In this document: one piece after another, positions 2,685 to 61,056 of the stretch
How positions within the stretch are numbered: position 1 is the stretch's first letter
Layout of the letters: each line of letters starts with the position of its first letter
Source of the DNA: Acidobacteriota bacterium
GTDB lineage: Bacteria; Acidobacteriota; Blastocatellia; Chloracidobacteriales; Chloracidobacteriaceae
Length of the DNA: 64,000 bases
Direction: 5' to 3'
Assembly (NCBI GenBank): GCA_016208495.1
Contig: JACQXX010000076.1
Location: forward strand, 4,139-68,138
Notes under the pieces: model-generated
The model's input: only the letters and a program-made list of their open reading frames with translations
What the model was told of the DNA's origin: nothing
The model's database searches: none
Program-made: the position numbers and the translations under genes

Positions 2685-5600
2685 TCAGCCCGACTTCTTC
2701 GTGAACTGGAGAACAAATGTGTTGGACCTGGCGCCATTGATCGTGACGATGATCTGATTGGCGCCGACCTGCAGGTTGAGTTTCTTTGGGTTTCCTTTCA
2801 GCGTCAGTTGAGTATCGGTCTGACTTTTTATTTTTTTGCTGACGTTGCTTCCATTGATGGTCACCATCGCGCCGCTGGTACCAAACCCCGACCCGGTCAG
2901 TGTCAGCATGGGTTTTTCATACCGGGCATCAATAATGGTTACTTGTGGTTGAGGAATCGCAATTCCTTTGATGGCACGAATCGCATCATTGCCCGTGTCG
3001 GTAAAAAACACCACTCCGGATCGGTCAACCGTGATTCCAAATGGATTCCTGATGGCAGCGATCACCGCAGGCCCACCATCGCCGGAATATCCATCACTCC
3101 CAGTCCCGGCAGCGGTGGTGATGATTCCAGTCTTCGAATCTACACGGCGGACACGATGGGCTTCCCGTTCGGTCAGAAACAGATTGTCTTCGGCATCCAA
3201 AGCCAGGCCAAACGGATTTCCAAGGACGGCCTGGGTGGCTGGACCGCCGTCTCCACCTTCTGCTTCTGGTCCACCCGCGACGGTGGTGATGATTTGAGTT
3301 GTTGCATCAACCCGCCGAATACAGTTATTGAGCGTATCGGCGATAAACAGATTTCCAGCCCGGTCAAGCGCCACGGCGGCTGGCTCAAACAAACTGGCAT
3401 TGATGGCCAGTCCGTTGTCACCTGAAAAGCCTGCCTCCCCGTTTCCAGCTACGGTCGAGATGATGCCGGTGCGACCATTGACTTTACGGATGCGCTGGTT
3501 AAATGTGTCAGCAATAAACAGATTGCCGTTTGCATCCTCCACCACACCCGTTAGACGGTAGAGGCTCGCGCTGATGGCTGAACCGCCATCGCCGCTGAAT
3601 TGAAACTGCCCGTCACCGGCAATGGTTTTGATGATTCCAGCTTCGATGCGATGAACACGCTGATTGCCGTTGTCAGCAATCAAAACCCGATTGAGCGTGT
3701 CCACCGCCACACCCATTGGGCTTAATCCAACGCTGATTGCGGGCTGGTTATCCTGCTCAAAGAAGTCTGAGCCGTTTCCAGCCACGGTTGAAATGTGCCC
3801 CGTTTGGAGGTCAAGGCGACGAATTCGATAATTGCCGTCATCAGCCACAAAGAGATTTGCCTGGGTATCAACCGCAACTCCGCCGCCAAAGAGGAAATTG
3901 ATTCCGGCGCCGATAGCCGGTCCGCCGTCACCATAAAATCCCGCATTGCCACTTCCAGCCACGGTTGTAATGATGCCACCACTTTCAACCCGACGAATTC
4001 GATGATTGTACTGATCGGAAATGTACACATTTCCAGTGCCGTCAACCGCTACATTGTTGGGCAAAAAGAGGTTGGCTTCGGTGGCCGGTCCATTGTCTCC
4101 GAAAAAGCCAGCAATTCCATTGCCGATCACAGTTGAAATGATATGGGTGCTGGCACTGACCCGGCGGATGACGTGATGGTTGGAATCAGCAATCAGGAGG
4201 TTGTTTTGAGTGTCAACCGCAACATCGGTTGGGAAATCCAGACCAGCTTCGGTGGCAGGTCCTCCATCATCAAAATCAAATTGGCCATCACCGGCAAACG
4301 TGGTGATGATTTTGGAAGCCGCATCAACCCGGCGAACCCGGTTATTAAACGAATCAGCGATGAAAATATTGCCTGGTGAATCAACCGCCACGCCGGTTGG
4401 ATAATACAGGCTCGCATTGATGGCGGGTCCTGAATCGCCGTGAAAAGCGGCTTCTCCATTTCCTGCCATCGTGGTGATGATGCCTGTGATTGCATCCACC
4501 CGCCGGATTCGACAGTTGATTGAATCCACCAGGAAAAGATGATTCAGCGCATCCACCGCCATTCCCATGGGTGCCGCCAGACTGGCTTCAAGAGCTGGTC
4601 CATCGTCACCGGTAAAATCCTGCGCTCCAGTTCCGGCAATGGTGGTGATGATTTGCGTTTGGGCATCAATGCGCCGGATCCGATGATTTTCGGTATCCGC
4701 AACCAGCAGATTCCCCTGGCGGTCCACCAGAATCGCGCGCGGGGTGTTGAGACTGGCACTGATGGCTGGAATGCCATCGCCGTTAAACCCGCGTGACCCA
4801 TTGCCAGCCACCGTGGTGATGCCGCCCGCCGGATCAACCTTGCGAATCCGATGGTTGCGGCTATCGGCGATATACAGATTTCCAAACCCATCGGAAGCGA
4901 CAAATCCTGGGTAGTTTAAACTGGCAGTGAGGGCATGGCCTCCATCGCCGACAAATCTGACTCCTCCGGCAACAGTTGTTATTTCTCCTGGTTTGAGCTC
5001 ATCCAGCGGTTTGGGAAGAAACCGAAATGATCGCTGGGCAATTCCGCCTCTGGTCTGGATTGAAAGGGTGCGCAACCCAGGGGCTGTTTGGCCTGGAACC
5101 ACCGGAATTCGCACCTGAGTGGCACTTTCCACGACCGCATCGCTGACCAGGCGATCCCCAACGATCACACGGCTTTCCGGGGCAAAATTCCGCCCGGTGA
5201 CAATAACTTCCGAGCCTCCTTCCAGTTGATCTGAATCACGACTCAGGCTGAGAATTTCCGGTGTGCCGACGGACACCACTTTGACGGCTTCTGCTTCGGT
5301 CGGAGAACTGGCATCCAGGACAAAGCTTTCTGTTCCACGCACTTCCACGCTGGTCGCTCTTGAAAAACTTCCTGGTTGAGCCAGATTGATCAGGTCAGGA
5401 AATTCACTGGTGGGTTGAGTGATAATTTGAACCCCGGTTTGATCCACAACATAAATATTGCCGACTTCGTCAAAGCTCACTGATTGGGGCGATTGAAACA
5501 TCAGATTTGCCGGCGGCTGACGCCGGATCATTCTCCGAATGGTCGTTACTTTTCCATCTCGGGTGACCAGCCGCACAACCCGGTTTCCTTCATCCGCCAC

Positions 5601-7244: not shown

Positions 7245-7769
7245 ATGCCGCTACTTCTGACTGAACACATACCCTCGCTGTGTCTTTCCTGGGTATTGGT
7301 TGGCTGTATGCTGTTCAACAGTTGGACAGCAAAGCCGGAAAGCCAATCCACAGTCCCAGGTCCAACATCCAAAGCTCAGGACGTCCGCCTTCCCGCCGAA
7401 CCCCAAACCTTGAACCCTGGAGAAAAACACACCTACCCGCTGACGCTCAACACCAATGACTACCTGAAACTGGTGGTGGAGCAACACGGGATTGATGTGG
7501 TGGTACGTTTGATTGGGCCGGATGGAAAATTGATTCAAGAAGTGGATTCCCCTAACGGCACCCAAGGTCCAGAACCGTTGTCTTCCATTATCGAGCAAAC
7601 CGGTAGCTACACACTTGAAGTAGAATCGTTGGAAAAGACCGCGCCACCGGGAAAATACGAGTTGAGGCTGGAAGCGGTGAAGCCAGCCGCCGGCGGCGGC
7701 TGGCCGGGTGGGGTAAGGAGGATTGGAGATGACCCGCAGCCGGTGGTGGCGCGTCCAAAGCGACGCTGA
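7245..7769 (+). CDS. Truncated CHAT/TPR-type protein (N-terminal domain only)
   Basis: A 174-residue protein beginning with a hydrophobic segment (about 8-27). ATG at 7245 follows a strong Shine-Dalgarno sequence (GAGGGGGAAA). Residues about 50-150 match, from memory, the N-terminal beta domain found before TPR and CHAT domains in many acidobacterial proteins (DYLKLVVEQHGIDVVVRL, DSPNGTQGPEPLS, GSYTLEVESLEK, PGKYELRLE). Those proteins usually continue for several hundred residues. Here homology stops just after YELRLEAVKP, and the last roughly 23 codons and the stop are supplied by a dispersed repeat element (7699-7855). The simplest reading is a gene cut short by repeat insertion. It may still be translated and exported. 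Confidence 0.7.
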   Translation: MPLLLTEHIPSLCLSWVLVGCMLFNSWTAKPESQSTVPGPTSKAQDVRLPAEPQTLNPGEKHTYPLTLNTNDYLKLVVEQHGIDVVVRLIGPDGKLIQEVDSPNGTQGPEPLSSIIEQTGSYTLEVESLEKTAPPGKYELRLEAVKPAAGGGWPGGVRRIGDDPQPVVARPKRR

Positions 7770-7855
7770 CCACCGGCTCACCGTACTCCATCCCAACGGG
7801 GATGAAAACCAAAAAACACTTCAACCCTTCACTGGCATTACTGACTACTGACTGA
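7699..7855 (+). repeat. Dispersed hairpin element, family R2, copy 1
   Basis: Matches the reverse complement of part of 60757-61056. Shared blocks are GGCCGGGTGGGG, CCGGTGGTGGCGC, CCAAAGCGACGCTGACCACC, TCCCAACGGGGATGA and ACTTCAACCCTT, ending in a CTACTGA heptamer tail. GCCGGTGGT and ACCACCGGC pair to form a hairpin. The left part lies inside the reading frame of the truncated gene. Confidence 0.85.
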
Positions 7856-42014: not shown

Positions 42015-42269
42015 CACGTCCCACCCAGGTCGCTCTGCTGAACTGACCATCCTCTGGTCACCTCTCAAAGTATTGGCCATAACACAAGCAATCAGGTATT
42101 GTTTTGACTTCAGGTCAATGAATTTCTCGGTGTCAGTCATCCTCAACCCGGTATTTTTCTGTTTGTAACCCGGTGGTTTAGCCATTGGAGGCATGTGAAA
42201 AACAGCCTCAATTGCTTTTGAGCCGACTGGTGTCATTTGACAAGCACCGCCGTTTGCCTGGAGGGTCAG

Positions 42270-45200
42270 ATGTACAAATTGCGATTTGTTCATGTGATAT
42301 GTCTTTTTGTAGGAATGTTATTTACCTGGATACCAGTGTTTGCACGTCAGGAAACGAAGAAGCCCGATCCGACACCGCAGGAATTAACTTCCCAGGCACT
42401 GGCCCTGGATGCTCAGGGGAAAAAGCTGGAAGCCTTTGCCCTTTTTTTCAATTTCCCTGGCGGTGAGAGTTATGCCGCAAAGATGGCAACAACCGACCCG
42501 AAAACCTACCTGGCGGAACTCGATAGGCTTGAAGCAACTTCAAAAAACCCTCGTAACCCGCGATTCTGGCTGGTTCGGGGGGATTTGTTGATGGCTTTGG
42601 GAAAAAATAAGGAAGCACTGGCAGCCTTCCGCAAGTTTGTGGCGGCAATTGGGAAAACACCCGATCAGACCTGGGACAAGGGATGGGTGCCCTCATTTTA
42701 TTACCCTTTAAGTCCAACCATACTCGAATTACAGAACGGAGTGTTCCAGTTGCCTTTGACACGTGGTGGGATGGGAAGTCACGCTGATAACTGGCTGATC
42801 CAACGCTTCCTGACACTCGGCGCCTGGGATGATGCCGCCAAAGAATTCGAACGGATGTGGAAAGTTCATCAACTGGCGGCACAGGGGAAACAATTGTTCG
42901 GACCTGGGCTGCGGTTTGCGCTCGAATATGCTTTTTTTCTGACCAAATCCAATCAACCCCAAAAGAGTTGGGACCTTTTGCTCAATGTCTTTTTACAGCT
43001 TGATTTGGAACAAAATCCAGGATGGAGAGCCCGTTTCCAGAGCTTTCAGAACCAAACGAATCAGGCAACTCCGCTGCCCGTTGACAATGAAACCCTTCAA
43101 AACCTGGCCAGTGCTCACAGTGGATACTCACAAAGTGAATTTATCCGCCTGGCGTATGGATACTTTCAGTTGAATAACCAGACCGATGTTCTGAAGCAGG
43201 CGCTTGAGCGGCAAATCCGCCAGGGCCGGAACCAGGCCCGATGGGTGCTGGCGCGGATTTTGCAGCTTGAAGGAAACGAAGACCAGGCGCTGGCAACTGA
43301 ACTGGAATATGTGCGTCAGGCCGGTTTTACGCCATTTACGGTCACCTATCGCTCAGGGCTGATTTATGAACGATATAACCGCCTGCGAGAAGCCACCGCC
43401 CTGTTGGAACAAACACTTCAGGCTGGGAACGTACCGATTTCAATCCCGGATCCGGATGACGTTGATCGTCTCGCAACGAAGGCATACAGCGAACCGGGCA
43501 TGCCCACCTTTTTCACAGATTCTCTGCGTGAAAAAGTCTTTAACCGGCTGGTGGTTGATTATTTTATACTCGGCGAGACCGAAAAAGCTCTGGCCGCCGA
43601 ATCACGATTACGCGGTCTTCAATCACCATTTGGATTGCCACGCTCAACTGCCCCTCGCAAAGAACAAACCAGTTCAAGTCCACCCACGACGTTCCCCTCT
43701 CAAAAATTCGAATTGGACCCCATCCCTGATGACCCGGTAGTCCTGATTCAAGCACTTGCGGCCTTGGCCAAACAAAAGAAAATGTATGAGGGAGAGTTCA
43801 AACGCTGGAAAGCCGTGATTGCCAGTCGAAACAAAGACCTGGTTCGCCCATTTTTGAATGCCCTGTTTGAGGCTGACCCAAAAAACCCGGTTTTTCTATT
43901 TGCTTTGCTCAAACCGGAAGGCGACTTAATCACGCCAGGGAGTCTTGTCTACTGGTTCAATCACCTCAAGATGAATGGCTCTGATGGTCAACCTCCGTTT
44001 TATTTTGACCACCTGGAGCCGACCCCGGCACTTCTCACCAACCTTGAACAACTCTCGACTCAATGGATTCGGCCAAATGATTCGGTGACTCGACAGAAGT
44101 TCTACCGAAACAGTGCGCTGGCTTATGCCTTGATGCGACTGTATGAAAAAACAGGTCAGGTTGAAAAAATGCTTCCCCTGGCTCTGAAGCTGGCTCAAGC
44201 CTGGAGTCAGGCTGATCTGACTCCCTTCTCATTCAACCGAATAGAGCTATTTCAGGGAAATACCGCCCTGACCATTGCCATTCAGCATTTGAACCGTGTG
44301 GAAGACCAAAAAACACTGCTCCAGGCGCTTGAATCATCTCCCTGGGAAGTTGCCACCACACAATTAAAACGGGTGATAGCTGGTCAAAAACTGGTCTCCG
44401 ATCCGAAACCAAATCCGCCCTGGGCCAATACACCTCAAGGAATTCAGGTGTTCGGAGGCCATGAAAATGTACTGAGTTTGTGCCGTGATCAGAAGCAAGT
44501 CTATGTTGGTTACCCCTGGGGCGTGGCCGTCTATAATTTTTCAGGACAGTTACTCACTCAGGTGGCACTGGAATGTGCCGCGTCCCACCTGACGGTGATT
44601 CAGGATACCTTGTGGGTCGGAACCGAGCTGGGGGTGAGGCGAGTTGATTTGAAAACCTATGCGGTCAGTGGATTTCCGTGTGATCAGGAACTGTCGGAAA
44701 AGGAAAAGCGAGAGGCATATCAAACCACAGAGCTTTACAACAACCGGATTGTTCCCATTCCCAGCCGTCGAGAAAAAATAAACGCCGTGACCAGCCTGGC
44801 CCGGCAAGGTCACATTCTCTGGATCAGCACCCAAACCTCGCTTCGCAAATATGACACGCTCACCAGTGAATTGCGGGTCTATCCGTTCAAAGACCTGACT
44901 GATACGTCCAGCTATGAAAAGGTGAAATGGCTGATTGATAGAGGCTATATCTGGGTTCAAATCGGTCAAACCAGTGACAGAGATGAAAATCAAGTACTGA
45001 GCTTGAGATATGATCCAGCCACTGACAGTTGGACCAAACCTCAGTCTCCCCTCGCACAGGCAGTCCAACTGGTGGGATTGATCAACGGTAACGTCTGGGC
45101 CACTCTTTTTCAAAAGGAGAAAACTCAGATTCAAGGAAAGTTATGTCTGATTGACTCACAAACCTTGAACATCACTCCCGTTGAAATTGAAACCAGCCTT

Positions 45201-47612
45201 TCCAGACCGCAATCCTCCCTTGATGGCAGGGTCAGTTTTTATGGTCACTGGCAGGGGAAATTTGTTTTTGAGACACAAGGCGAGCTGCTCCTGGTTGATC
45301 CAACCACCAGAAAAGCCTCATTTCTGCGAAATTCAGCTTTGAATTCTGACGCTGAACGACAAGCCTTGCGGGCCCGTCAACACCAGGTGCTCACGGAAAT
45401 GGAGTCTGATTTGCCTCTATCCCTGCGAACTGGTCGCATTTACCGGTTACCGGATGGCGGTATCGCTGGAATAGGGTGGTTCAGACCTGAATCAAAGAAA
45501 ATGATCCCTCTGGACTATAACCCAACTTTTTGCCTTCGTTTGCCAGATAACTCCGCATTTGTGGGGTGCGTCACCTTTGGGGGGGACAACTATGCCCATC
45601 CAGATTATGAGTTCAGATCACGATACCAATACCAACCTCAATTTTTTGGTCAATCAGGAGGTCTCGGGATGCTCTCTGCTGAGGGTGATTTCCGTTTGCT
45701 TACGAAATCTCAGCACTGGGGGACGATTTGGGGCGATTATGTGAATTTTGTCGTGCCGGACAGCAACCATAATCGGATTTGGGTCGGAACTAATTTTGGA
45801 ATCACCATTTTGAACCAAAATTTTCAGGTGCTTGGCAACCTCACGACCCGTGATGGACTGGCCTCCAATCTGGTGATGGCTGGCGCCATGGGGCAGCAAC
45901 TGGCTGTGGTCAACAAAATCTCGAGCGATTCTGACATTCTCACCTTGATTGATCCAAAAACCAACCTGCTGACATCGTTAAGCTCCTTTGATGGGCTGCC
46001 GCCGTTACCAATCAAATCAGTGGACATCGAAGGTCAAAAACTCAAAGTTGAGTACTGGCCCAAATCCATCAATGACTTGAGAATCACGGCGTCGCCAGGG
46101 TTTTATGATTTCCAAACTCATCGCATTGAACGGTCGCTGGTGACCGATGGCACCGAGCTAAAGCCAGGTCCAGGGAATAATGAAGAAGGCATGCCCTATC
46201 TTGGCGGGCGAATTCAGTGGAAAAAGGTCATTGACGGAAAGACATTTGTTCTCGGCACGCGAGGACTGATGATTTTGCCCAATGCCGTGCTTCCGAAGAT
46301 GACGACTTCGGAATGGCCGGTGAAATTCTCAAACCCGGCGCCAACTGAGCCCAAAAAACAGGCGACGTCTCCGCAGGCTTCGGCACAACAACCCATTGAG
46401 AACATTTTGGTTTCTCGACCAGTTCCTGCCCAGATGACGCCGTCACCGGGGCTTTCCACATACTTTCAGGCTGACCACCACTCACCGTTTCAACCGGTTT
46501 CGCTCTTTGCATCACCTCGTTTGGTTGAAAAGCGAATACCTGTTGATCAAGCGGCTCAGGTGAAACACCCGTGCGGTTCCGCCATCACTCCCGACTCAAT
46601 TCAGCAACTTATCAATCGCCCGTTTGTTCGAGAAAACAATGATACTGAGCTTTGTTTTTACACGCTCGGGACTGCGGTTTCAGAGAATCCTGACCTCTTA
46701 AAACTGCTGCTCAATTCGCAACCTCAATCTGAAGGATACTTTCAGGCTTACCGGAACCTCCTGAAACGAATCTTTTCCTACGCCAATAAACGTGTTGTCT
46801 CCACCATTCATCAGGCGCTGGCCTCTCCAAATATGCTCGTGAGACGTAACGCCGCCTATGCCTGTGCGGGACTCAAGGACCCGGCTTCGATTCCGCTGTT
46901 GATTCAGGCCCTCAAAACCGAATCAGGTCTGGTCCGGGCCGGTGTAGTCTGGGCATTGGGGGAACTCAAAGCCCACGAAGCCGTGCCGGCGTTGATGAAA
47001 ATTTACTTTGAAGGATTCACTGTCGGGCGGCGTTTCAGTCTTGGATTTCGAACAGATGAGTTGAACCGCGATCTGGAACGCCAGTACCAGAAATTGAAGG
47101 TGAGTACGGTACCGGTAACCCCACCTTTTGTTGACTATAGCTCAAACTGGTCCACGTCCTGGTTATTAGATTTCCGTACTTTGGATCAGGCGCTCATCGC
47201 GATTGGTCCCCAGCACACCCAACCCTATATCCGACTCCGGATCTATGAAGATCCTCTTTATGGCAGCGCACAGGCTCTGATGCAGTATCTGGCAGATTGC
47301 CCGCCGGCTGAGGTCGAACACAACAAAGGGATTTGCCGACACTTTGCGGAACAGAGGTCACTTTCAGCCGCCGTGAACCTGATCATTTGGGGGGACCAAA
47401 CCATCGAGCCAGTTATTTTGGACTGGTTGAAAGATATCTCCTCTCGATCTTCTCCAACTAATTCCCGTTCAGGAGCAGCATTATCTGAACTCACTCGGGT
47501 AAAGGACAAATCACAACTCAGATTTGCCCGCCCGATTTTGCTTCAATTGGCCAACGATCCATCATTTGATTCGGAGCTTCGCAAAAAAGCTCAAAGACTG
47601 GCTCAGGAATAG
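42270..47612 (+). CDS. Giant exported protein: TPR-like region, beta-propeller, HEAT repeats
   Basis: A 1780-residue protein. ATG 42270 follows GGAGGG (5-base spacing) and starts a signal peptide (1-24). Residues about 25-700 are alpha-helical, TPR-like (with AQALDAQGKKLEAFALFF-type starts). Residues about 725-1335 form a beta-propeller of the two-component-regulator type (LWVGTELGVRRVDL, LWISTQTSLRKYD, IWVGTNFGITILN). A Pro/Gln-rich linker leads to HEAT repeats (about 1430-1660; NMLVRRNAAYACAGLKDPAS, LVRAGVVWALGELKAHEAVP). The neighbour at 48057-51017 has the same ends without the propeller. It probably acts in the periplasm or on the surface as a scaffold; no enzyme motif was seen. Confidence 0.82.
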   Translation: MYKLRFVHVICLFVGMLFTWIPVFARQETKKPDPTPQELTSQALALDAQGKKLEAFALFFNFPGGESYAAKMATTDPKTYLAELDRLEATSKNPRNPRFWLVRGDLLMALGKNKEALAAFRKFVAAIGKTPDQTWDKGWVPSFYYPLSPTILELQNGVFQLPLTRGGMGSHADNWLIQRFLTLGAWDDAAKEFERMWKVHQLAAQGKQLFGPGLRFALEYAFFLTKSNQPQKSWDLLLNVFLQLDLEQNPGWRARFQSFQNQTNQATPLPVDNETLQNLASAHSGYSQSEFIRLAYGYFQLNNQTDVLKQALERQIRQGRNQARWVLARILQLEGNEDQALATELEYVRQAGFTPFTVTYRSGLIYERYNRLREATALLEQTLQAGNVPISIPDPDDVDRLATKAYSEPGMPTFFTDSLREKVFNRLVVDYFILGETEKALAAESRLRGLQSPFGLPRSTAPRKEQTSSSPPTTFPSQKFELDPIPDDPVVLIQALAALAKQKKMYEGEFKRWKAVIASRNKDLVRPFLNALFEADPKNPVFLFALLKPEGDLITPGSLVYWFNHLKMNGSDGQPPFYFDHLEPTPALLTNLEQLSTQWIRPNDSVTRQKFYRNSALAYALMRLYEKTGQVEKMLPLALKLAQAWSQADLTPFSFNRIELFQGNTALTIAIQHLNRVEDQKTLLQALESSPWEVATTQLKRVIAGQKLVSDPKPNPPWANTPQGIQVFGGHENVLSLCRDQKQVYVGYPWGVAVYNFSGQLLTQVALECAASHLTVIQDTLWVGTELGVRRVDLKTYAVSGFPCDQELSEKEKREAYQTTELYNNRIVPIPSRREKINAVTSLARQGHILWISTQTSLRKYDTLTSELRVYPFKDLTDTSSYEKVKWLIDRGYIWVQIGQTSDRDENQVLSLRYDPATDSWTKPQSPLAQAVQLVGLINGNVWATLFQKEKTQIQGKLCLIDSQTLNITPVEIETSLSRPQSSLDGRVSFYGHWQGKFVFETQGELLLVDPTTRKASFLRNSALNSDAERQALRARQHQVLTEMESDLPLSLRTGRIYRLPDGGIAGIGWFRPESKKMIPLDYNPTFCLRLPDNSAFVGCVTFGGDNYAHPDYEFRSRYQYQPQFFGQSGGLGMLSAEGDFRLLTKSQHWGTIWGDYVNFVVPDSNHNRIWVGTNFGITILNQNFQVLGNLTTRDGLASNLVMAGAMGQQLAVVNKISSDSDILTLIDPKTNLLTSLSSFDGLPPLPIKSVDIEGQKLKVEYWPKSINDLRITASPGFYDFQTHRIERSLVTDGTELKPGPGNNEEGMPYLGGRIQWKKVIDGKTFVLGTRGLMILPNAVLPKMTTSEWPVKFSNPAPTEPKKQATSPQASAQQPIENILVSRPVPAQMTPSPGLSTYFQADHHSPFQPVSLFASPRLVEKRIPVDQAAQVKHPCGSAITPDSIQQLINRPFVRENNDTELCFYTLGTAVSENPDLLKLLLNSQPQSEGYFQAYRNLLKRIFSYANKRVVSTIHQALASPNMLVRRNAAYACAGLKDPASIPLLIQALKTESGLVRAGVVWALGELKAHEAVPALMKIYFEGFTVGRRFSLGFRTDELNRDLERQYQKLKVSTVPVTPPFVDYSSNWSTSWLLDFRTLDQALIAIGPQHTQPYIRLRIYEDPLYGSAQALMQYLADCPPAEVEHNKGICRHFAEQRSLSAAVNLIIWGDQTIEPVILDWLKDISSRSSPTNSRSGAALSELTRVKDKSQLRFARPILLQLANDPSFDSELRKKAQRLAQE

Positions 47613-47623
47613 AATTACCTGAG

Positions 47624-47993
47624 TACAACTCCCCATAAAAGAGGGATGAAATTCGACCACTCTCTGGGAGAAACATTGGTTTTCGCCCGGATGGGCGCTG
47701 GAAAATAGCCGGTGGCAAGTGTCGCTTTGGACATGCGGCCACCGGACAGAGTCACCATCAAGGATTCGCGCCCGGATGGGCGCTGGGCCACACAGGTGAG
47801 CGAGAAACCGAAAATCCAACGGGAACCGAGACCCGAACCAGCTTCCAGCGCCCATCCGGGCGCAAACCACTGCGGACCGACGCTCCGGTGGTGTGCCCAA
47901 AGCGGCAAACCACCGGCTATTGTCCGGCGCCCATCCGGGCGAAAGCCAATTCGGAGGAACCGAATTTCCACCCTTTATTTATGGGGACTTGTA
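47624..47993. mobile_element. MITE-like element, copy 1 (370 bp)
   Basis: The terminal inverted repeat is TACAAGTCCCCATAAA (left copy TACAACTCCCCATAAA). On both sides the flank is CTGAG (47619-47623 and 47994-47998), consistent with a 5-bp target duplication. Inside, four copies of CGCCCGGATGGGCGC or its complement and several CCACCGG/CCGGTGG arms make it largely palindromic. No transposase ORF is present. Copy 2 in inverted orientation is at 54003-54373, highly similar over the whole length. It separates the two giant paralogs. Confidence 0.85.
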
Positions 47994-48056
47994 CTGAGTA
48001 CTGAAGCGACGAGAATCATTCTTTGAGAAATTCACACCATGTGACCGGAGGGAACG

Positions 48057-51017
48057 ATGAGGAAATCCAGATTTCTGCAGATATTGTGTGGCATTGTTTG
48101 GATACTGCTTGGATATGGGTCGGTGCTGGCTGGTCAGCCAAATTCTCAGCACTGGCAGTCCCCAGAGGACAAGATTGCCCAGGCCAAAAAGCTGGAAGAA
48201 GCTGGTCTCAAACAGCAAGCCTTTGCCCTCTATATAAAAATTCCCAATGCGGAACACCTCGCTCTTCGCATCGCCCAAACTGACCCCAAAGGCTATCTTG
48301 AACTTCTCAGGTCAATTGAATCCGAACCAGGATCGCGGCCCGACCCACGACTCTGGCTGATACAGGGTGAATTACTCTTCAAACTTGGCTCATCGAAGGA
48401 AGCCTTAACCTGTTACAAAACGTTTACCGCGTCACTCGATCAAACCGTCCTCCAAACCTGGGACGAGCGTGAGCTACCACGTCCTTATTATCCGGTTAGC
48501 CCTCAGGTGATTGGGATACATGGAAATCTGTCAGGATCTACCTCCGGTTCACCGGGTCTGGAAAATTCATTTTTCACGTTAAAGCCTTTTCATTATGGAC
48601 CAGGAAGTCAGGCTGACAACTTGCTCTTGCAACGATTTTTATCGCTTGGCGACTGGGATGAAGCTGCCAAAGAATTTGAACGGATTTGGAAAATTCATCA
48701 ATTTGTCGCGCTTGAGGGTCAATTGTTTGGACCGGGCTTACAGTTTGCCCTCGAATACGCCTTCTTTCTGACCAAATATCAACAGCGAAATCGAGGGCTC
48801 GATATTTTGGTGAACGCCTTGCTCAGGGTGAATCTGGACCGCTATCCGGAAACAATTTATTCCCCATACAGTCCGATAGCCAAAAATCCTGAAATCCAGG
48901 CATGGCGCGACAGAATGACAATAAATTCAGATGACCTTCTTTATTTGACGAGGCCAGCCTGGTTTACCCAACCCTTATTTATTCGGCTGGTGTATGGACA
49001 GTTTTCCTTACTGGGTCTCACGGCAACGTTGAAACAGGTCCTTGAAAGCCAGATTCAAGCCGGAAATTTCAAAATGCGGAGGGTGCTGGCTCGAATTGTA
49101 CAACTGGAGGGAAAAGAGGACGAAGCCATTGCACTTGAACTGGAATACCTGCGCCAGGCCGGGTTTAATCCGTTGACAGTCGCCTTTCGCTCGGGGCTGA
49201 TTTATGAACGATATAACCGCCTGCCTGAAGCCATTTCCCAGTTTGAACAATGCCTGAAGCTTCCCAAACAACCGCTTTCGATGCCTGACCCAGAAGAAGA
49301 TAAATGGCAGGAGCAACGGTTCCCAAAGGATAGAAGCGATTATGGATACCGTGAAGGGTTTTATCCCAATGGTATTTTGAAACATTTATTTTTCGCTTAT
49401 TCGACGCTGGGCGAGGTTGAAAACACACTGCGCGTCGGATTGCAGTTGCTCGAAAACAAGGCCATTTTGAGAGATCTGGAGTTTGACCAGATTTGCAACC
49501 TCTTTGTAATTGCTGGAAAACAAACCGAACTGACAACCTGGATTCGAACCCATGCTGAACTGTATGCGGACTATCCGCTTCGAAGGGCGTCCCTGGCGTG
49601 GTTGAGTGATGATCCCAAAACAGTCATTGATGTACTTGTCTCGCTGGCCAAAATTCAGAGGCTTGACGAGTATCAGTTCACACGATGGGAAGCGCTTATT
49701 TCAAGCCAGAAAAAAGAATGGCACCGACCATTTCTGGAAGCCATTGTGGCGGCAGACCCAGACAACGCAAAATTTCGGCGCGCTCTGGATTCAATCAAAT
49801 CCGACACCACGTCAGTTGGGAATCGTGCCACCTCATCAGATAACAAGGTGACACCACAAACAGGAATTCCTGGCCGCCTCTCCACTTCCCAGCCTAGACC
49901 ACCTGGGCAAACCAGTCCCATCAACCGTCCGTCAGCTCAAATTCAGCACAAGACACCGCCCCCTATCGAGCCACAACCCAAGGTAGACAATCCCTGTGGT
50001 CAACCAATCACCTCAGCTTTTGTTCAGCAATTGATTGGCAATCCCAATCAGGAAAAGCGAGAAGATTGTTTTAAAGCCCTTGGGGAAGCAGTTTCCAAGA
50101 ATCCACAATTGTTACAACTCCTGCTTAACTCTCAACCTCCAGACTGTTGTAGCCGGTTTGAGTCCTATGATGAATTTCTGAAACGAATTTTTATCCGTAC
50201 CGACAAAAGCATCGTTCCCACTATTCATCAGGCGCTGGCCTCTCCGAATATGCTCGTGAGACGCAACGCCGCCTATGCCTGTGCGGGACTCAAGGACCCG
50301 GCTTCGATTCCGCTGTTGATTCAGGCGCTCCAAACCGAGTCGAGCCTGGTCAGGGCCGGCGTTATTTGGGCGCTGGGCGAACTCAAGGCCAAAGCAGCCA
50401 TTCCAACCCTAATGAAAATGTACCGTGAAGGTGCGGGCATTGAATCCTGGATGAAGTTCGGATTTCGGACTGATGAGCTGAATCGGGGACTCGAGCGACA
50501 GTACCAAAAATTAAATACCAACACCCCACTCCTGGCTCACCCACAGGCGGATTATTACGACCACGATGCCTGCCGCTTGCGCTGGTTACTTCGTCCCGAG
50601 GATTTTGATCGGGCGTTTCTGGCCATTGGTTTAGAAACAGTTCAACCCTATGTTCGATTCCAACTCCAACAAGAGAGTGCGTTTGCAATGGACCTTAGAA
50701 TTAACCATCTGGAGAAGTGTCCGCCATCGGAAGTTGAACAAACAAAAGGAATATTGCGCTGTATCGCTGCGAAAGACTCGGTTGAAGCCGCCGTGGGGCT
50801 CCTGCTGCTCGGAGATAAAACGATTGAGCCGGTCATTGTACAGTGGTTGCAACAAATCAAGCGATATCCTGTTCATCGACTTGTGGCATTACTCCATTTT
50901 CGTGTCCGAGATCGGTCCAAACTGGCGTTTGCCCGCCCGATTTTGGCCCAATATGTGGCAAACCCGTCCCTTTCTCCAGAAACCCGAGGGTATGCCCAAA
51001 TGATCCTTGAAGAATAA
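48057..51017 (+). CDS. Exported TPR-like/HEAT-repeat protein, paralog without propeller
   Basis: A 986-residue paralog of the preceding gene. GGAGGG stands 6 bases before ATG. The signal peptide is 1-26. Residues about 27-600 are TPR-like helices with blocks shared with the paralog (WDEAAKEFERIWKIHQFVAL, FRSGLIYERYNRLPEAI). A Pro/Gln/Ser-rich linker (about 615-660) takes the place of the propeller, followed by HEAT repeats (about 720-790 clearest). A stretch of about 100 bp coding for the first HEAT repeat is almost identical to the paralog while flanking DNA has diverged. The function is unknown. Confidence 0.82.
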   Translation: MRKSRFLQILCGIVWILLGYGSVLAGQPNSQHWQSPEDKIAQAKKLEEAGLKQQAFALYIKIPNAEHLALRIAQTDPKGYLELLRSIESEPGSRPDPRLWLIQGELLFKLGSSKEALTCYKTFTASLDQTVLQTWDERELPRPYYPVSPQVIGIHGNLSGSTSGSPGLENSFFTLKPFHYGPGSQADNLLLQRFLSLGDWDEAAKEFERIWKIHQFVALEGQLFGPGLQFALEYAFFLTKYQQRNRGLDILVNALLRVNLDRYPETIYSPYSPIAKNPEIQAWRDRMTINSDDLLYLTRPAWFTQPLFIRLVYGQFSLLGLTATLKQVLESQIQAGNFKMRRVLARIVQLEGKEDEAIALELEYLRQAGFNPLTVAFRSGLIYERYNRLPEAISQFEQCLKLPKQPLSMPDPEEDKWQEQRFPKDRSDYGYREGFYPNGILKHLFFAYSTLGEVENTLRVGLQLLENKAILRDLEFDQICNLFVIAGKQTELTTWIRTHAELYADYPLRRASLAWLSDDPKTVIDVLVSLAKIQRLDEYQFTRWEALISSQKKEWHRPFLEAIVAADPDNAKFRRALDSIKSDTTSVGNRATSSDNKVTPQTGIPGRLSTSQPRPPGQTSPINRPSAQIQHKTPPPIEPQPKVDNPCGQPITSAFVQQLIGNPNQEKREDCFKALGEAVSKNPQLLQLLLNSQPPDCCSRFESYDEFLKRIFIRTDKSIVPTIHQALASPNMLVRRNAAYACAGLKDPASIPLLIQALQTESSLVRAGVIWALGELKAKAAIPTLMKMYREGAGIESWMKFGFRTDELNRGLERQYQKLNTNTPLLAHPQADYYDHDACRLRWLLRPEDFDRAFLAIGLETVQPYVRFQLQQESAFAMDLRINHLEKCPPSEVEQTKGILRCIAAKDSVEAAVGLLLLGDKTIEPVIVQWLQQIKRYPVHRLVALLHFRVRDRSKLAFARPILAQYVANPSLSPETRGYAQMILEE

Positions 51018-51469
51018 TTCATCAGGTGTTCCGTTCTGACATCCGGTTTTCCCAGGAACGGGCACCGGGATTGCCGATTCATTGCCTGAATTGAAAATAA
51101 CCAACCTCCAGTTCTTTCCAGTTTTTCTTTGTTTTGCAATCACATAGGCCAGACAGAACCACTGGCGCAGTAATTCTTTGTTTGATTCTTAGGCCCAAAC
51201 ACTCGCTCATTCTACAACGCCCTTGCAGGGCTTGAACTTCCTCCTGGCCGGGCCCGTGGGCTTCGCACCACGGCTATTTTACAACGCTCCTGCGGAGCTA
51301 AACCACTGATTTTGCTTATAATTACCCAGACTAAGAATTGCTGCACCGGCGAATGGTATCCGCCGCATTTTTTTGCTTCGTCTGGTGACTGATTGAAGCT
51401 GGCACAAGGGTTGCACTCCTTCAAAAGATTCACCGTCTCACTTTTCCCGGACTTTTAAGGAGGCCCGCT
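51018..51469. other. Intergenic region containing repeat R3
   Basis: 452 bp before the ADOP permease gene. The R3 element lies at 51210-51302. TATAAT at 51317-51322 might be a -10 box, but no good -35 box is seen at the right distance. No ORF was accepted here. Confidence 0.5.
51210..51302. repeat. Dispersed element R3, copy 2
   Basis: A central CCGTGGGCTTCGCACCACGG hairpin is flanked on both sides by related small hairpins, ACAACGCCCTTGCAGGGCTT and ACAACGCTCCTGCGGAGCTA. The central and right parts match 24229-24286. Confidence 0.8.
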
Positions 51470-53935
51470 ATGACCCTGACCCATCTGGCCAAGGATTTAC
51501 AGTTCAGTTTGCGATTACTTTGGAAAAACCCTGGTTTCACGCTGGTGGCCGTGCTGTCGCTGGCACTTGGTATCGGCCTGAACGCCACCGTCTTTACCTG
51601 GTGCAAAGCAGCGATTTTAGATCCACTTCCGGGCGTACCTGACGCGCGCAGCCTGATCCTGGGATTTGGTGCGACCCAAAGCGGCAATGCATTTTCGATT
51701 TGCTATCCAGATTATGTTGATTTGCGCGACCAGAACACGTCGTTTGAGGGACTCGCCGTTTTTCGCAACTTAACCGTCAATCTCAGCCAGGACGGCAAAA
51801 CTGACCGGACGTGGGCCTGTCTGGTCAGCGGGAATTACCTCGATGTATTGCACATCAAACCGCTGTTGGGTCGGTCATTTTCACCCGAAGAAGATCGCAC
51901 GCCTTCTACTCATCCGGTCGTCGTGATGAGCTATAACCTGTGGCAATCTCGCTTTCAGGGTAACCCGAACGTGATTGGTTCTACGATGACCATCAACGGC
52001 AAAACCTTCACTGTGATTGGGGTCACTCCGAAAGGATTTGTCGGAGGAATCGTTGCCATTTCACAAGATTTGTGGATTCCCATGATGATGCAGGAATCCA
52101 TCCGACCTGGAAAAGACCTCTTGACCAGTCGGGGCAATCGCTGGTTGCAAATGATTGGCCGGTTAAAACCTGGGGTTTCGCTGGCACAAGCTCAGGCCAA
52201 TCTCAAATCAATTTCGGCCCACATTGCTGAAACGAACCCAACCACCAACGCCAACTGGACCGTTGCCCTGTATCCACTCACTCAATCACCGGAAGGAGCT
52301 TCGAAAATTCTGGGCCCGGTGTTGTTGTTGCTGATGGGTATTGTCAGCGTGGTACTGCTGGTAGCCTGCGCCAATGTCGCGAATTTGTTTATGATCAAGG
52401 CTACCAATCGGCGCAAGGAAATCAGCATCCGGATTGCGCTGGGCGCCAGTCGGTGGCGGATTATCAGTCAATTGATGGTTGAAAGCCTGGCGTTGTCAGT
52501 CATTTCCGGAGTTGTGGGCCTGTTGATTGCCGTCTGGACCGCAAAATCATTTTTGGCAATGCTCCCGACCCAACGGCTTCCGATTCATTTGGATTGTTCG
52601 ATTGACCAGCGAGTTTTGTTATTTACCTTTGGCATCACCCTGGCCACGGGGTTTCTGTTTGGGTTGCTCCCTGCCCTGCAGGCCACCCGACTCAATCAAG
52701 CCACCACGCTCAAGGATGAAGGGTCATCCGTCACCTTAAATCTCAAACAGTCGAAATTGCGGAGCAGTCTGGTTTCCCTGCAGGTGGCTCTCTCTCTGGT
52801 GGCGTTGATTACCGCCGGGCTCTTTGTGCGCAGCGTCTATAACTCGATCAACACCAGCCCTGGGTTTTCCGTTGATCAAGTATTCGTTGCAAGCCTGGAT
52901 GTCTTTCCCAATGGATATGATCAAAAGCGTGGAAAAGCCTTCTTTACCGAGCTGTTACGTCAGGTGCGAACCCTGCCGGGTGTTCAAGCCGCCAGTTTGT
53001 CCCGTTCGGTTCCACTCGGATCGATGGGTCGCAGTTCGACTTCAATCACGGTTGATGGCTATACGCCGCGCCCCGAAGAGGATATGGATACCGAATATAA
53101 TATCGTTGAGACTGATTTTTTCCGGTCGCTGGAAATTCAATTTACCCTGGGCTCCGATTTTCACCTGCTGGCCCCACCTCAAACCGATCAACCCGACCCC
53201 AACCGGATTGAACAGGCCATCGTCAATGAAACTTTTGTCAGACGCTACCTGGGCGAAGGAAATCCACTGGGTCGCAAAATTGAAGTCAATAACCAGAACC
53301 ACCAGATTATCGGCGTGGTCAAGGATATCAAGCTGCGGTCAATGAACGAGCCTCCCCGGCCCTATATGTATTTGCATGCACCAGACAACTATCGATCCGA
53401 TTTTGTTCTACTGGTCAAAACTGAGGGCAACCCGTTGAAAGCCGCTCCAGGCGTCAAAAATATCGTCGCAGGAATTGATCCGAACATTCCGATCTTTGAT
53501 GCCAAATCATTGGCTGAACACACCCAGCTTTCCCTGTTTCCACAACGATTTGCGATGATTTTCCTGAGTATTTTCGGCTTTCTGGCGCTTGGGCTGGCGG
53601 CAATGGGGCTCTATGGAATGATGGCCTATTCGGTCACACAACGGACGCGAGAAATCGGCATTCGAATGGCGCTTGGGGCCGACAAACAGGATGTGTACCA
53701 GTTGATTTTGGGCCGTGGGTTGATCCTGCTCCTGATTGGGATGGGGCTTGGGGTGGTTGGAACGATTGCCGTGGCCCGGCTTGCCTCAAGCCTGTTATTT
53801 GGCGTCACCGCCACCGACCCCGTCACTTATTTGGGCGTATCGCTCCTGCTTTTCGGCATCTCGTTTATGGCGTGCTTTTTCCCAGCCTACCGGGCGACAC
53901 GCATCAACCCCGTGATTGCGCTCCGGTACGAGTGA
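51470..53935 (+). CDS. ADOP-type ABC transporter permease (MacB/FtsX-like, duplicated, orphan)
   Basis: An 821-residue inner-membrane protein. AAGGAGG is 7 bases before ATG. It has two MacB-like periplasmic domains (about 50-255 and 455-655) and two FtsX permease domains (about 285-410 and 690-815), with ANVANLFMIKATNRRKEISIRIALGASRWRII in the first and TQRTREIGIRMALGADKQDV in the second. This is the layout of the acidobacterial duplicated orphan permeases, which occur without their own ATPase gene, as here. The transported or extruded compound is unknown. The stop codon merges with a GAATGAA/GAATTGA heptamer array. Confidence 0.9.
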   Translation: MTLTHLAKDLQFSLRLLWKNPGFTLVAVLSLALGIGLNATVFTWCKAAILDPLPGVPDARSLILGFGATQSGNAFSICYPDYVDLRDQNTSFEGLAVFRNLTVNLSQDGKTDRTWACLVSGNYLDVLHIKPLLGRSFSPEEDRTPSTHPVVVMSYNLWQSRFQGNPNVIGSTMTINGKTFTVIGVTPKGFVGGIVAISQDLWIPMMMQESIRPGKDLLTSRGNRWLQMIGRLKPGVSLAQAQANLKSISAHIAETNPTTNANWTVALYPLTQSPEGASKILGPVLLLLMGIVSVVLLVACANVANLFMIKATNRRKEISIRIALGASRWRIISQLMVESLALSVISGVVGLLIAVWTAKSFLAMLPTQRLPIHLDCSIDQRVLLFTFGITLATGFLFGLLPALQATRLNQATTLKDEGSSVTLNLKQSKLRSSLVSLQVALSLVALITAGLFVRSVYNSINTSPGFSVDQVFVASLDVFPNGYDQKRGKAFFTELLRQVRTLPGVQAASLSRSVPLGSMGRSSTSITVDGYTPRPEEDMDTEYNIVETDFFRSLEIQFTLGSDFHLLAPPQTDQPDPNRIEQAIVNETFVRRYLGEGNPLGRKIEVNNQNHQIIGVVKDIKLRSMNEPPRPYMYLHAPDNYRSDFVLLVKTEGNPLKAAPGVKNIVAGIDPNIPIFDAKSLAEHTQLSLFPQRFAMIFLSIFGFLALGLAAMGLYGMMAYSVTQRTREIGIRMALGADKQDVYQLILGRGLILLLIGMGLGVVGTIAVARLASSLLFGVTATDPVTYLGVSLLLFGISFMACFFPAYRATRINPVIALRYE

Positions 53936-53936
53936 A

Positions 53937-53955
53937 GAATTGAGAATGAAGAAAC
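53937..53955. repeat. Heptamer array GAAGAAT/TGAGAAT
   Basis: Short array of two to three 7-base units starting at the permease stop codon. Confidence 0.6.
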
Positions 53956-54002
53956 TCGATTGATGAAATGCTTTTGGTCCTTGGAAAGTATTGATTCCTA
54001 AG

Positions 54003-54373
54003 TACAAGTCCTCATAAATGGAGGATGGAACTTCGGTGATTCCGAATTGGCTTTCGCCCGGATGGGCGCCGGACAATAGCCGGTGGTTTGCCGCTTTGGG
54101 CACACCACCGGAGCGTCGGTCCGCAGTGGTCCGCGCCCGGATGAGCGCTGGAAGCTGGTTCGGGTCCCGGTTTTCGTCGAAGTTTCGGCTTTTGGCTCAC
54201 GACTCCTGTTCCAGCGCCCATCCGGGCGCGACCCCGTGATGGCGATTCTTTCCGGTGGCCGCGTGTCCAAAGCGACACTTGCCACCGGCTATTTTCCAGC
54301 GCCCATCCGGGCGAAAACCAAATTTTCTCCCAGTGAGTGGTGGAATTTCATCCCTCTTTTATGGGGACTTGTA
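54003..54373. mobile_element. MITE-like element, copy 2 (371 bp, inverted relative to copy 1)
   Basis: Ends TACAAGTCCTCATAAA and TTTATGGGGACTTGTA. The flank on both sides is CTAAG (53998-54002 and 54374-54378), again a 5-bp direct repeat of the form CTNAG. The interior is the reverse complement of copy 1 with scattered changes and the same four CGCCCGGATGGGCGC-type motifs. No ORF. Confidence 0.85.
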
Positions 54374-54399
54374 CTAAGCCCAAGTCGCCGGATACCTTG

Positions 54400-54432
54400 T
54401 TCATTCTCAATTCTTTATTCTTCATTCTTCAG
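54400..54432. repeat. Heptamer array TTCATTC/TTTATTC
   Basis: Four to five units between the MITE and psuG. TGGTATGCT at 54458-54466, just after the array, resembles an extended -10 promoter for psuG. Confidence 0.75.
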
Positions 54433-54558
54433 GGTCTGTCTCCTCGCGGAAAAAATGTGGTATGCTGGCGCTTCACATCAGTTTGGAAGCTTCCCAGCTC
54501 AGGTCTCTCGCCCTGACAAACTACTCTCAATTCTCAAATTTCCCTCCGCGAGGTGTCT

Positions 54559-55473
54559 ATGCCAGGTAAAAACGCTCCTCTTCATATCGCCCCCCACATT
54601 GCTGAAGCCATCGAATCTGGGAAACCTGTGGTTGCACTTGAAAGCACCGTCGTTGCGCACGGTCTTCCATTTCCCCAAAATCTCGAAGTGGCTCATCAAA
54701 TTGAACAAGAAGTCAAAAATATGGGAGCAATTCCAGCCACCATTGGGGTTGTCGGCGGTGTCCCCACCATTGGGCTGGACGAAGAGGCGCTGGCAATGCT
54801 GGCACGTGGCGAACAGGTATTAAAACTCTCGCGGCGTGACATTGCCTTTGCCGTGGCAATGGGGCGTCACGGAGCAACCACCGTCGCGGGAACGGCAGCA
54901 CTGGCCGAAATAGCTGGGATTCAGGTTTTTTCAACTGGCGGCATTGGTGGCGTTCATCTGGGCGCCAGAGAAACCTGGGACATCAGCGGTGACATCCTGG
55001 AACTTTCCCGGACCAAAGTTCTGGTTATTTGTTCGGGCGCTAAAGCCATCCTGGACCTGCCGGCAACCCTTGAAAGCCTTGAAACGAATGGAATTCCTGT
55101 GGTTGGGTACCAAAGCCACGAGTTTCCCGCTTTTTACACCTCAAAAAGCGATTTATTTCTCAATGCCCAGGTCAACACGCCAGCCGATGCCGCGAAATTT
55201 TGGAAAATGCACTGTGCTTTTGGCGGCGGCGGTGGCGCCGTGCTGGCCGTTCCTCCACCCGTAGACAGCGCGCTCGATCCATCAGCCTTAAACGAAGCGA
55301 TTGGAACAGCATTGATTCAAGCCGAACAAAAAGGCGTTCGTGGTCAGGCTGTGACTCCGTTTTTGCTGCGAATGGTCTGTGAACTCACCGGCGGCGCAAG
55401 TAAGAAGGTCAATATTGCCTTGTTGCTGCAAAACGCCCGAATTGCAGCACTCATAGCCAAAGAACTGGCGTGA
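54559..55473 (+). CDS. psuG: Pseudouridine-5'-phosphate glycosidase
   Basis: A 304-residue enzyme that splits or forms pseudouridine 5'-phosphate from uracil and ribose 5-phosphate. Strong family markers: ALESTVVAHGLPFPQN, GVVGGVPTIGL, GRHGATTVAGTAALAEIAGI, FSTGGIGGVHLGA and SGAKAILDLPATLESLE, which holds the catalytic Lys. The length is normal for PsuG. ATG 54559 is chosen with GAGG just upstream; a GTG two codons earlier is possible. No pseudouridine kinase gene adjoins it. The stop codon leads directly into a GAATGAA heptamer array. Confidence 0.93.
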   Translation: MPGKNAPLHIAPHIAEAIESGKPVVALESTVVAHGLPFPQNLEVAHQIEQEVKNMGAIPATIGVVGGVPTIGLDEEALAMLARGEQVLKLSRRDIAFAVAMGRHGATTVAGTAALAEIAGIQVFSTGGIGGVHLGARETWDISGDILELSRTKVLVICSGAKAILDLPATLESLETNGIPVVGYQSHEFPAFYTSKSDLFLNAQVNTPADAAKFWKMHCAFGGGGGAVLAVPPPVDSALDPSALNEAIGTALIQAEQKGVRGQAVTPFLLRMVCELTGGASKKVNIALLLQNARIAALIAKELA

Positions 55474-60756: not shown

Positions 60757-61056
60757 GCTAGTGGCTAGTGGTTAGTAATGTCAGTTAAGAGTTGAAGTAG
60801 TTTTGGTTCTCATCCCCGTTGGGATGAAGTAAGGTGAGCCGGTGGTCAGCGTCGCTTTGGAAGCGCCACCACCGGATGCAGGTCAGTTTCAGATTTTCCC
60901 CACCCGGCTGGCCGGGTGGGGGTAAGAAGGCAACGTTTTCCCAGGGTTAAAACCCTGGGCTAGCGTGCCTACGCGGGAGTTCCTGGGCTCAAATCTGCTC
61001 TTTTTTCAACCCTTAACTGGCATCACTAATCACTAATCACTAACCACTAACCACTC
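60757..61056. repeat. Dispersed hairpin element R2, copy 2, with heptamer-array ends
   Basis: A 300-bp unit. The ends are inverted copies built from CACTANY heptamers plus GCCAGTTAAGGGTTGAA (left end GTGGCTA arrays then TGTCAGTTAAGAGTTGAA). Inside are TCATCCCCGTTGGGATGA, GGTGGTCAGCGTCGCTTTGG, CCCACCCGGCTGGCCGGGTG and CCCAGGGTTAAAACCCTGGG hairpins. The left half matches, inverted, 7699-7855. It separates the receptor gene from the ABC ATPase gene. Confidence 0.85.

Follow-up and report, generated by a model that had tools for sequence, protein, structure and literature searches.

REPINs (doublets of repetitive extragenic palindromic sequences, REPs) and miniature inverted-repeat transposable elements (MITEs) are as a rule regarded as two distinct classes of non-autonomous repeats, each with a transposase of its own. 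Here we describe an element of about 370 bp from the genome of an Acidobacteriota bacterium which shows features of both. Two copies of it lie in the stretch of 64,000 nucleotides that was analysed (the window; positions 4,139 to 68,138 of contig JACQXX010000076.1, assembly GCA_016208495.1). Each copy is probably a non-autonomous composite, in which a MITE shell of the DDE type encloses a REPIN-like core that is associated with Y1 transposases.

The closest described systems cover different parts of this element. In REPINs and REPtrons with their REP-associated tyrosine transposases (RAYT or TnpA-REP), as far as the cited sections describe them, a GTAG-type tag precedes the hairpin, two hairpins are placed in inverted orientation and copies of these hairpins accompany a Y1 transposase gene in the same genome (PMC3116915, PMC3733652, PMC8266576). 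All of this has its counterpart here; however, the Y1 proteins of the present system fit subclass 1.2 (YIxNQxxHH) and not the YIxxNP class, and arms with target duplications surround the hairpin pair. A description of TnpA-Y1 subclass 1.2 from 2018 records it as being without REPs, mostly from Cyanobacteria and Bacteroidetes and at low copy number (PMC6006769); the motifs and the low copy number are alike, whereas here tagged hairpins flank the genes across an Acidobacteriota class. For the arms, the best comparison is NuwaII, a eukaryotic group of the PHIS superfamily related to PIF-Harbinger and IS5, which shares the target C|TNA|G, the same ambiguity between a 3- and a 5-bp duplication and a terminal repeat starting with a 5' G, as reconstructed here (PMC4482050). 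A DDE_Tnp_4 fragment is present in our host genome as well, but no transposase with the ends in question was found in it. Finally, the GTAG-15 dimers of Anabaena variabilis are likewise REP dimers nested in a larger palindrome; the part of that report cited here mentions no duplications and found no REP-free palindromes (PMC3733652), whereas our family has duplications and a few REP-free shells.

The two window copies occupy positions 47624..47993 (plus strand, 370 bp; 47623-47994 when the terminal G and C are included) and 54003..54373 (minus strand, 371 bp). They are inverted relative to each other and about 90% identical, and their coordinates agree with those of a first-pass annotation made from the letters of the sequence. 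Each copy has one perfect TACAAGTCCCCATAAA end and one with a single mismatch; at up to three mismatches this end matches five times in the window, where 0.46 matches are expected and none of 100 shuffles reached five. Copy 1 is flanked by CTGAG (47619..47623 and 47994..47998, with TGA as the central TNA) and copy 2 by CTAAG (53998..54002 and 54374..54378), both pairs having been read correctly before. Copy 2 is inserted into a dispersed repeat, GAAAGTATTGATTCCTAA (53984..54001, plus strand).

The interior had been described as a nested palindrome with four motifs and without a transposase, which holds, but its identity had been missed: it is a REPIN-like core that is shared with Y1 transposase loci of the host genome. 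In detail, motif and hairpin searches placed in copy 1 the palindrome P1 (CGCCCGGATGGGCG, 47684..47697, plus strand), a module which also occurs at the Y1 loci, a tagged hairpin ATAG-CCGGTGG...CCACCGG (47705..47745, plus), the palindrome P2 (47769..47782, plus), a spacer of 66 bp (47783..47848), the palindrome P2' (47849..47862, minus), the inverted tagged hairpin (47885..47920, minus) and the palindrome P1' (47928..47941, minus). Copy 2 shows the same parts, namely an outer palindrome (54055..54068, plus), a tagged hairpin (54076..54111, plus), an inner palindrome with one mismatch (54134..54147, plus), a second inner palindrome (54215..54228, minus), the inverted tagged hairpin (54252..54292, minus) and the other outer palindrome (54300..54313, minus). 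The CGCCCGGATGGGCG motif thus occurs four times in each copy, and its nine matches in the window compare with 0.81 expected and were reached in none of 100 shuffles. As a single DNA strand copy 1 folds into one long hairpin of -123 kcal/mol (z = -15.6; z = -14.7 for the RNA fold). No transposase open reading frame (ORF) was found within either copy.

The general order of the core is P1, a (G/A)TAG-tagged CCGGTGG hairpin, P2, spacer, P2', inverted hairpin, P1'. Across the host genome (an 8.4-Mb draft in 177 contigs, coded G000) the hairpin TAGCCGGTGG-N-CCACCGG was counted 88 times on one strand and 80 times on the other (control 0), and it is also present in 15 other genomes of the class, often as inverted pairs. 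In one of these, G015, the gene between the inverted hairpins encodes a Y1 (IS200-like) transposase. A Y1_Tnp search of the host genome itself yielded nine genes or fragments, and at four of these loci the gene is bordered by modules of P1, tagged hairpin and P2 with CGCCCGGATGGGCG-type palindromes: C161, C166 and C74 have one on either side of the gene, C106 on a single side. The gene is interrupted by another small repeat at C166 and broken at C74. The C166 module is 89% identical to an element core over 112 bp (E 6e-37), and the 66-bp spacer of the window element takes the position which the transposase gene has at the Y1 loci. As judged from this comparison, the element looks like a Y1-locus unit minus its gene within TACAAGTCCCC arms; TACAAG arms were found at none of the Y1 loci. 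As in a REPIN, there are thus two inverted tagged hairpins here, of the kind that flanks a Y1 transposase gene in the same genome. The partner, however, carries the tyrosine motif YIANQEDHH and is not a RAYT of the YIxxNP class, which is why we speak of a REPIN-like core and not of a RAYT REPIN. Another Y1 gene of the host genome (L190, G000:C91:65897-66238) lies between a different long inverted repeat with an exact match of at least 40 bp (TTTTCCCCGCAGGGGATATTTAAAG...).

The Y1 protein passes the NCBIfam cut-off for IS200/IS605, while REP_Tyr_transpos is absent or below its cut-off, and shows the motifs DHVH, WQ and YIxNQxxHH. By motif (DH[IV]H, WQ, Y---Q--HH) these proteins fit TnpA-Y1 subclass 1.2. 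In 23 of 24 relatives from other genomes with a recognised ORF, the two flanks share an exact inverted repeat of 13-34 bp, which exceeds the longest one in 30 shuffles per relative; in 13 of these the repeat includes a sequence with a TAGCC tag, TTAGCCAGTGGTGAAGCCACTGG and GTAGCCAGACGTGAAACGTCTGG being examples. In addition, TAGCCGG hairpins lie beside the Y1 gene at seven loci in other genomes. This suggests that subclass 1.2 proteins, although recorded as REP-less, do have tagged-hairpin partners in the Acidobacteriota, which makes their activity testable by a simple cleavage assay.

The same kind of core is also found in other arms. A 0.85-Mb sample contained hairpins in three kinds of arms, TACAAGTCCCC, GGGACTGTAAAAAATCAACTTCCCG (with TNA duplications) and CTCCGTTGCGGAAAGG; at the latter about 10 bp are repeated at both ends in four of five clear pairs, a length that is tentative, as two of the pairs have one mismatch and two lie in simple repeats. 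CCGTTGCGG arms had been considered as natural ends of a Y1 element without duplication, which was dropped when longer flanks showed the duplication of about 10 bp (4/5 clear pairs). In another family of the class the same architecture is present in CTGATGTTACGC arms with duplications of 7 bp (TTACTAA, CTCTTAA, AACATAA). Identical hairpins occur in TACAAG arms, in CCGTTGCGG arms and at Y1 loci. A core in four sets of arms, with TNA duplicated in two of them and about 10 bp and 7 bp in the others, suggests that cores and shells are exchangeable modules. Since Y1 loci without TACAAG arms and core-free shells (65 and 29 bp) both exist, shell and core are separable. In a tree of the hairpin halves the GGGACTG cores form one clade and the TACAAG cores do not (p-AU 0.025, from a quick tree with few columns). 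Of the 21 hairpins of CCGTTGCGG and Y1 loci, 14 retain the GTAG tag, as against 9 of 55 hairpins of TACAAG elements, where 45 of 55 read ATAG (p 5e-5 for the GTAG counts, with related copies being non-independent); a shell that has become independent of the Y1 enzyme would be expected to show such a loss. A second composite family (L241 8346, L243 15806, L256 16609) is set in GGGACTGTAAAAAATC / GGGAGCGTTAAAAAAC arms and has TNA duplications as well as hairpin subtypes of its own.

Genome-wide, the element end is found at about 92 positions. The paired copies that were readable number 37, with lengths of 65-484 bp, mostly about 286, 357 or 370 bp; roughly 45 transposase-less mobile elements make up the family in this one genome. 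In the shorter copies blocks between CGCCCGGATGGGCG motifs are missing, and these motifs are apparently where internal deletions or rearrangements took place. Identity among full-length copies reaches at most 97.8%, with a median of 85%, and the family therefore does not stem from a very recent burst. Many copies are inserted within other dispersed repeats and heptamer arrays; the arrays (GTAGTCA)n and (TAGTGGT)n adjoin the insertion sites of many of them, for example at L005, L028 and L079. The earlier designation as MITE-like is borne out by the short conserved inverted ends, the duplications at many sites, the lack of coding capacity and the multiple copies.

Outside the host, the exact 19-base end had no match in genome_contigs (one genome per species), and no true copy was found in 97 relatives, where single ends with two mismatches occurred in G059 and G077. 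A 17-base end pattern gave ten scattered matches in genome_contigs, fewer than expected by chance, and was taken as such; an end match in viral_contigs had no partner end. Two weak matches in a class-wide blast search with the element (G034 and G026) proved to be of the hairpin core only, which led to the reinterpretation of the element. Rfam contained no match on the elements.

The duplications flanking the copies exceed chance: the 5-bp flanks are identical in 24 of 37 copies (shuffled partners: mean 12.3, maximum 21 in 10,000) and TNA is identical in 28 of 37 (mean 16.7, maximum 26 in 10,000). Their length was given as 5 bp (CTNAG) in the first-pass annotation, but a 3-bp duplication of TNA at C|TNA|G, with an element starting with G and ending with C, is favoured for three reasons. 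Where the first or fifth flank base is discordant, the odd one is on the outer side (7/7); the base next to TACAAG is G at 72 of 74 ends and the fifth base out is C at 65 of 74; and paralogous empty sites, e.g. GATTTCTAACCACTAACC, show C where the filled site has G beside the element. Copies lacking the CTNAG duplication or the conserved ends had been named as evidence against a mobile element of this kind; this check is passed in part, as the 5-mers do differ in 13 of 37 copies but the ends are conserved. A C|TNA|G target with a 3-bp duplication is a feature of IS5 / PIF-Harbinger (PHIS) type elements (PMC4482050), and the flanks here agree with it.

We infer the following course of events. 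The shell would be a cut-and-paste MITE with GTACAAGTCCCCATAAA ends, and a DDE transposase, which may belong to the IS5/PIF-Harbinger (DDE_Tnp_4) type, would act in trans on the TACAAG ends and insert the whole 370-bp unit at C|TNA|G, thereby duplicating TNA. The core would be a Y1 element (IS200-type, TnpA-Y1 subclass 1.2) with the 66-bp spacer in place of the former transposase gene; presumably such an element, or a gene-less derivative of it, came to lie inside the shell. Arms and cores may have been exchanged more than once, with the core now being a passenger. The matched flanks at many sites and the paralogous empty sites speak in favour of this. Whether, in a wider sense, subclass 1.2 hairpin cores were repeatedly captured by unrelated DDE-type MITE shells in Acidobacteriota, giving rise to two-transposase composites of which the window copies represent one capture, we consider an evenly balanced question.

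Several observations weigh against the composite reading. The core tree is based on few columns and leaves many forks unresolved, the core-free shells are rare and could have arisen by deletion, and a 5-bp duplication is the better fit for two copies (GTTAG/GTTAG and TTAAG/TTAAG). For Y1 proteins of subclass 1.2 transposition is itself putative, and no transposase with these ends was found, the DDE class being deduced from end structure and duplications. In detail, an autonomous insertion sequence (IS) with the same ends, as proposed earlier for a check, was found neither in the draft genome nor in the 97 relatives nor, by exact search, in genome_contigs. Among the 92 ends there were no convergent pairs 0.7-4 kb apart and no transposase beside unpaired ends. 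PF01609 matched an IS with TAGGGTAAACGCATCTTA ends and a gene truncated at a contig edge, both of them unrelated, and PF13586 and PF13340 had no match. The sole lead of a fitting kind is the C-terminal 66 residues of a DDE_Tnp_4 protein, cut at a contig edge (L269 1-202, start of G000:C6), with no matching end in the downstream flank. As draft assemblies break at repeats, an autonomous copy could be missing from the data, and since none was found, membership of a particular IS family is not claimed.

Other explanations account for parts of these results. That the element is a plain MITE, i.e. an internal deletion derivative of one DDE-type IS whose palindromes arose within it and are unrelated to other elements, was the earlier view and agrees with the ends, the duplications, the size and the lack of a Y1 gene in any copy; it is already strained by the match of the core to the host Y1 loci in both sequence and order, and the presence of the same core in other arms makes it improbable. 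The opposite view regards all 370 bp as one REPIN or 'TIR' element (TIR, terminal inverted repeat) that is moved by Y1 alone, the TACAAG arms being extended Y1 ends. In its favour, the host genome contains Y1 genes, and Y1 genes with long inverted repeats around them in place of REPs have been described (PMC3733652). Yet TACAAG arms are found at none of the Y1 loci, and the GTAG tag is largely lost in the TACAAG elements. In addition, TNA is duplicated here, whereas to our knowledge IS200/IS605-type transposition does not duplicate its target, and we give this view little credence.

A further possibility is that shell and core travel apart, the hairpin cores having entered already existing palindromic MITEs at their centres by separate jumps. 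The TACAAG cores do belong to more than one lineage, and the A. variabilis GTAG-15 dimers sit inside long palindromes, according to the section cited (PMC3733652). However, one core type is common to most TACAAG copies, although these lie at separate targets and each has its own duplication, a pattern that speaks for shell and core having spread together; core-free shells are also rare. We regard repeated insertion as unlikely, if less so than the views above. Finally, the very stable fold and the intergenic position of both window copies would suit hairpins that are kept between genes as functional RNA or DNA, such as terminators or mRNA stabilisers, and are not mobile DNA. The target duplications and the insertions into other repeats point to transposition instead, the elements have no Rfam match, and we hold this to be very improbable, although a function acquired after insertion is conceivable.

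The suggestion that the inverted pair might promote inversion of the 6-kb segment between the copies found no support. Each copy keeps its own matched duplication, while recombination would leave mixed flanks (of the CTGAG/CTTAG type), so that the present arrangement is not a fixed recombination product. Mixed flanks of this sort, CTAAG/CTTAG, do occur elsewhere in the genome, at C16:91707 and C130:4735, where the elements lie within inverted copies of one target repeat; recombination between copies would leave such a pattern.

Copy 1 lies in the gap from an ORF that ends at 47612 to another that starts at 48057, and copy 2 between the ORFs 51470-53935 and 54553-55473, overlapping the start of a longer, mechanically called ORF (54083-54823) that is otherwise unsupported. 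The genes at 42237-47612 and 48057-51017 encode two large neighbouring TPR/HEAT-repeat proteins, the giant paralogs of the first-pass annotation, and 51470-53935 encodes a MacB/FtsX-type permease. Between the genes 48057-51017 and 51470-53935 there is a sub-threshold match to Acido-Lenti-1 of Rfam (51254-51299, plus strand; 30.2 bits against a gathering threshold of 37, E 7e-4). Single armless hairpins of the same general type as those of the core, TGAGCCGGTGGTCAGCG...CCACCACCGG, are located at 7736-7780 and 60835-60875 of the window. The host genome also contains a coreless palindromic repeat of about 110 bp with GTACCTT ends and TTA/TAA flanks (L079 2052, L196 1385, L242 2740 and others), one copy of which interrupts a Y1 transposase gene.

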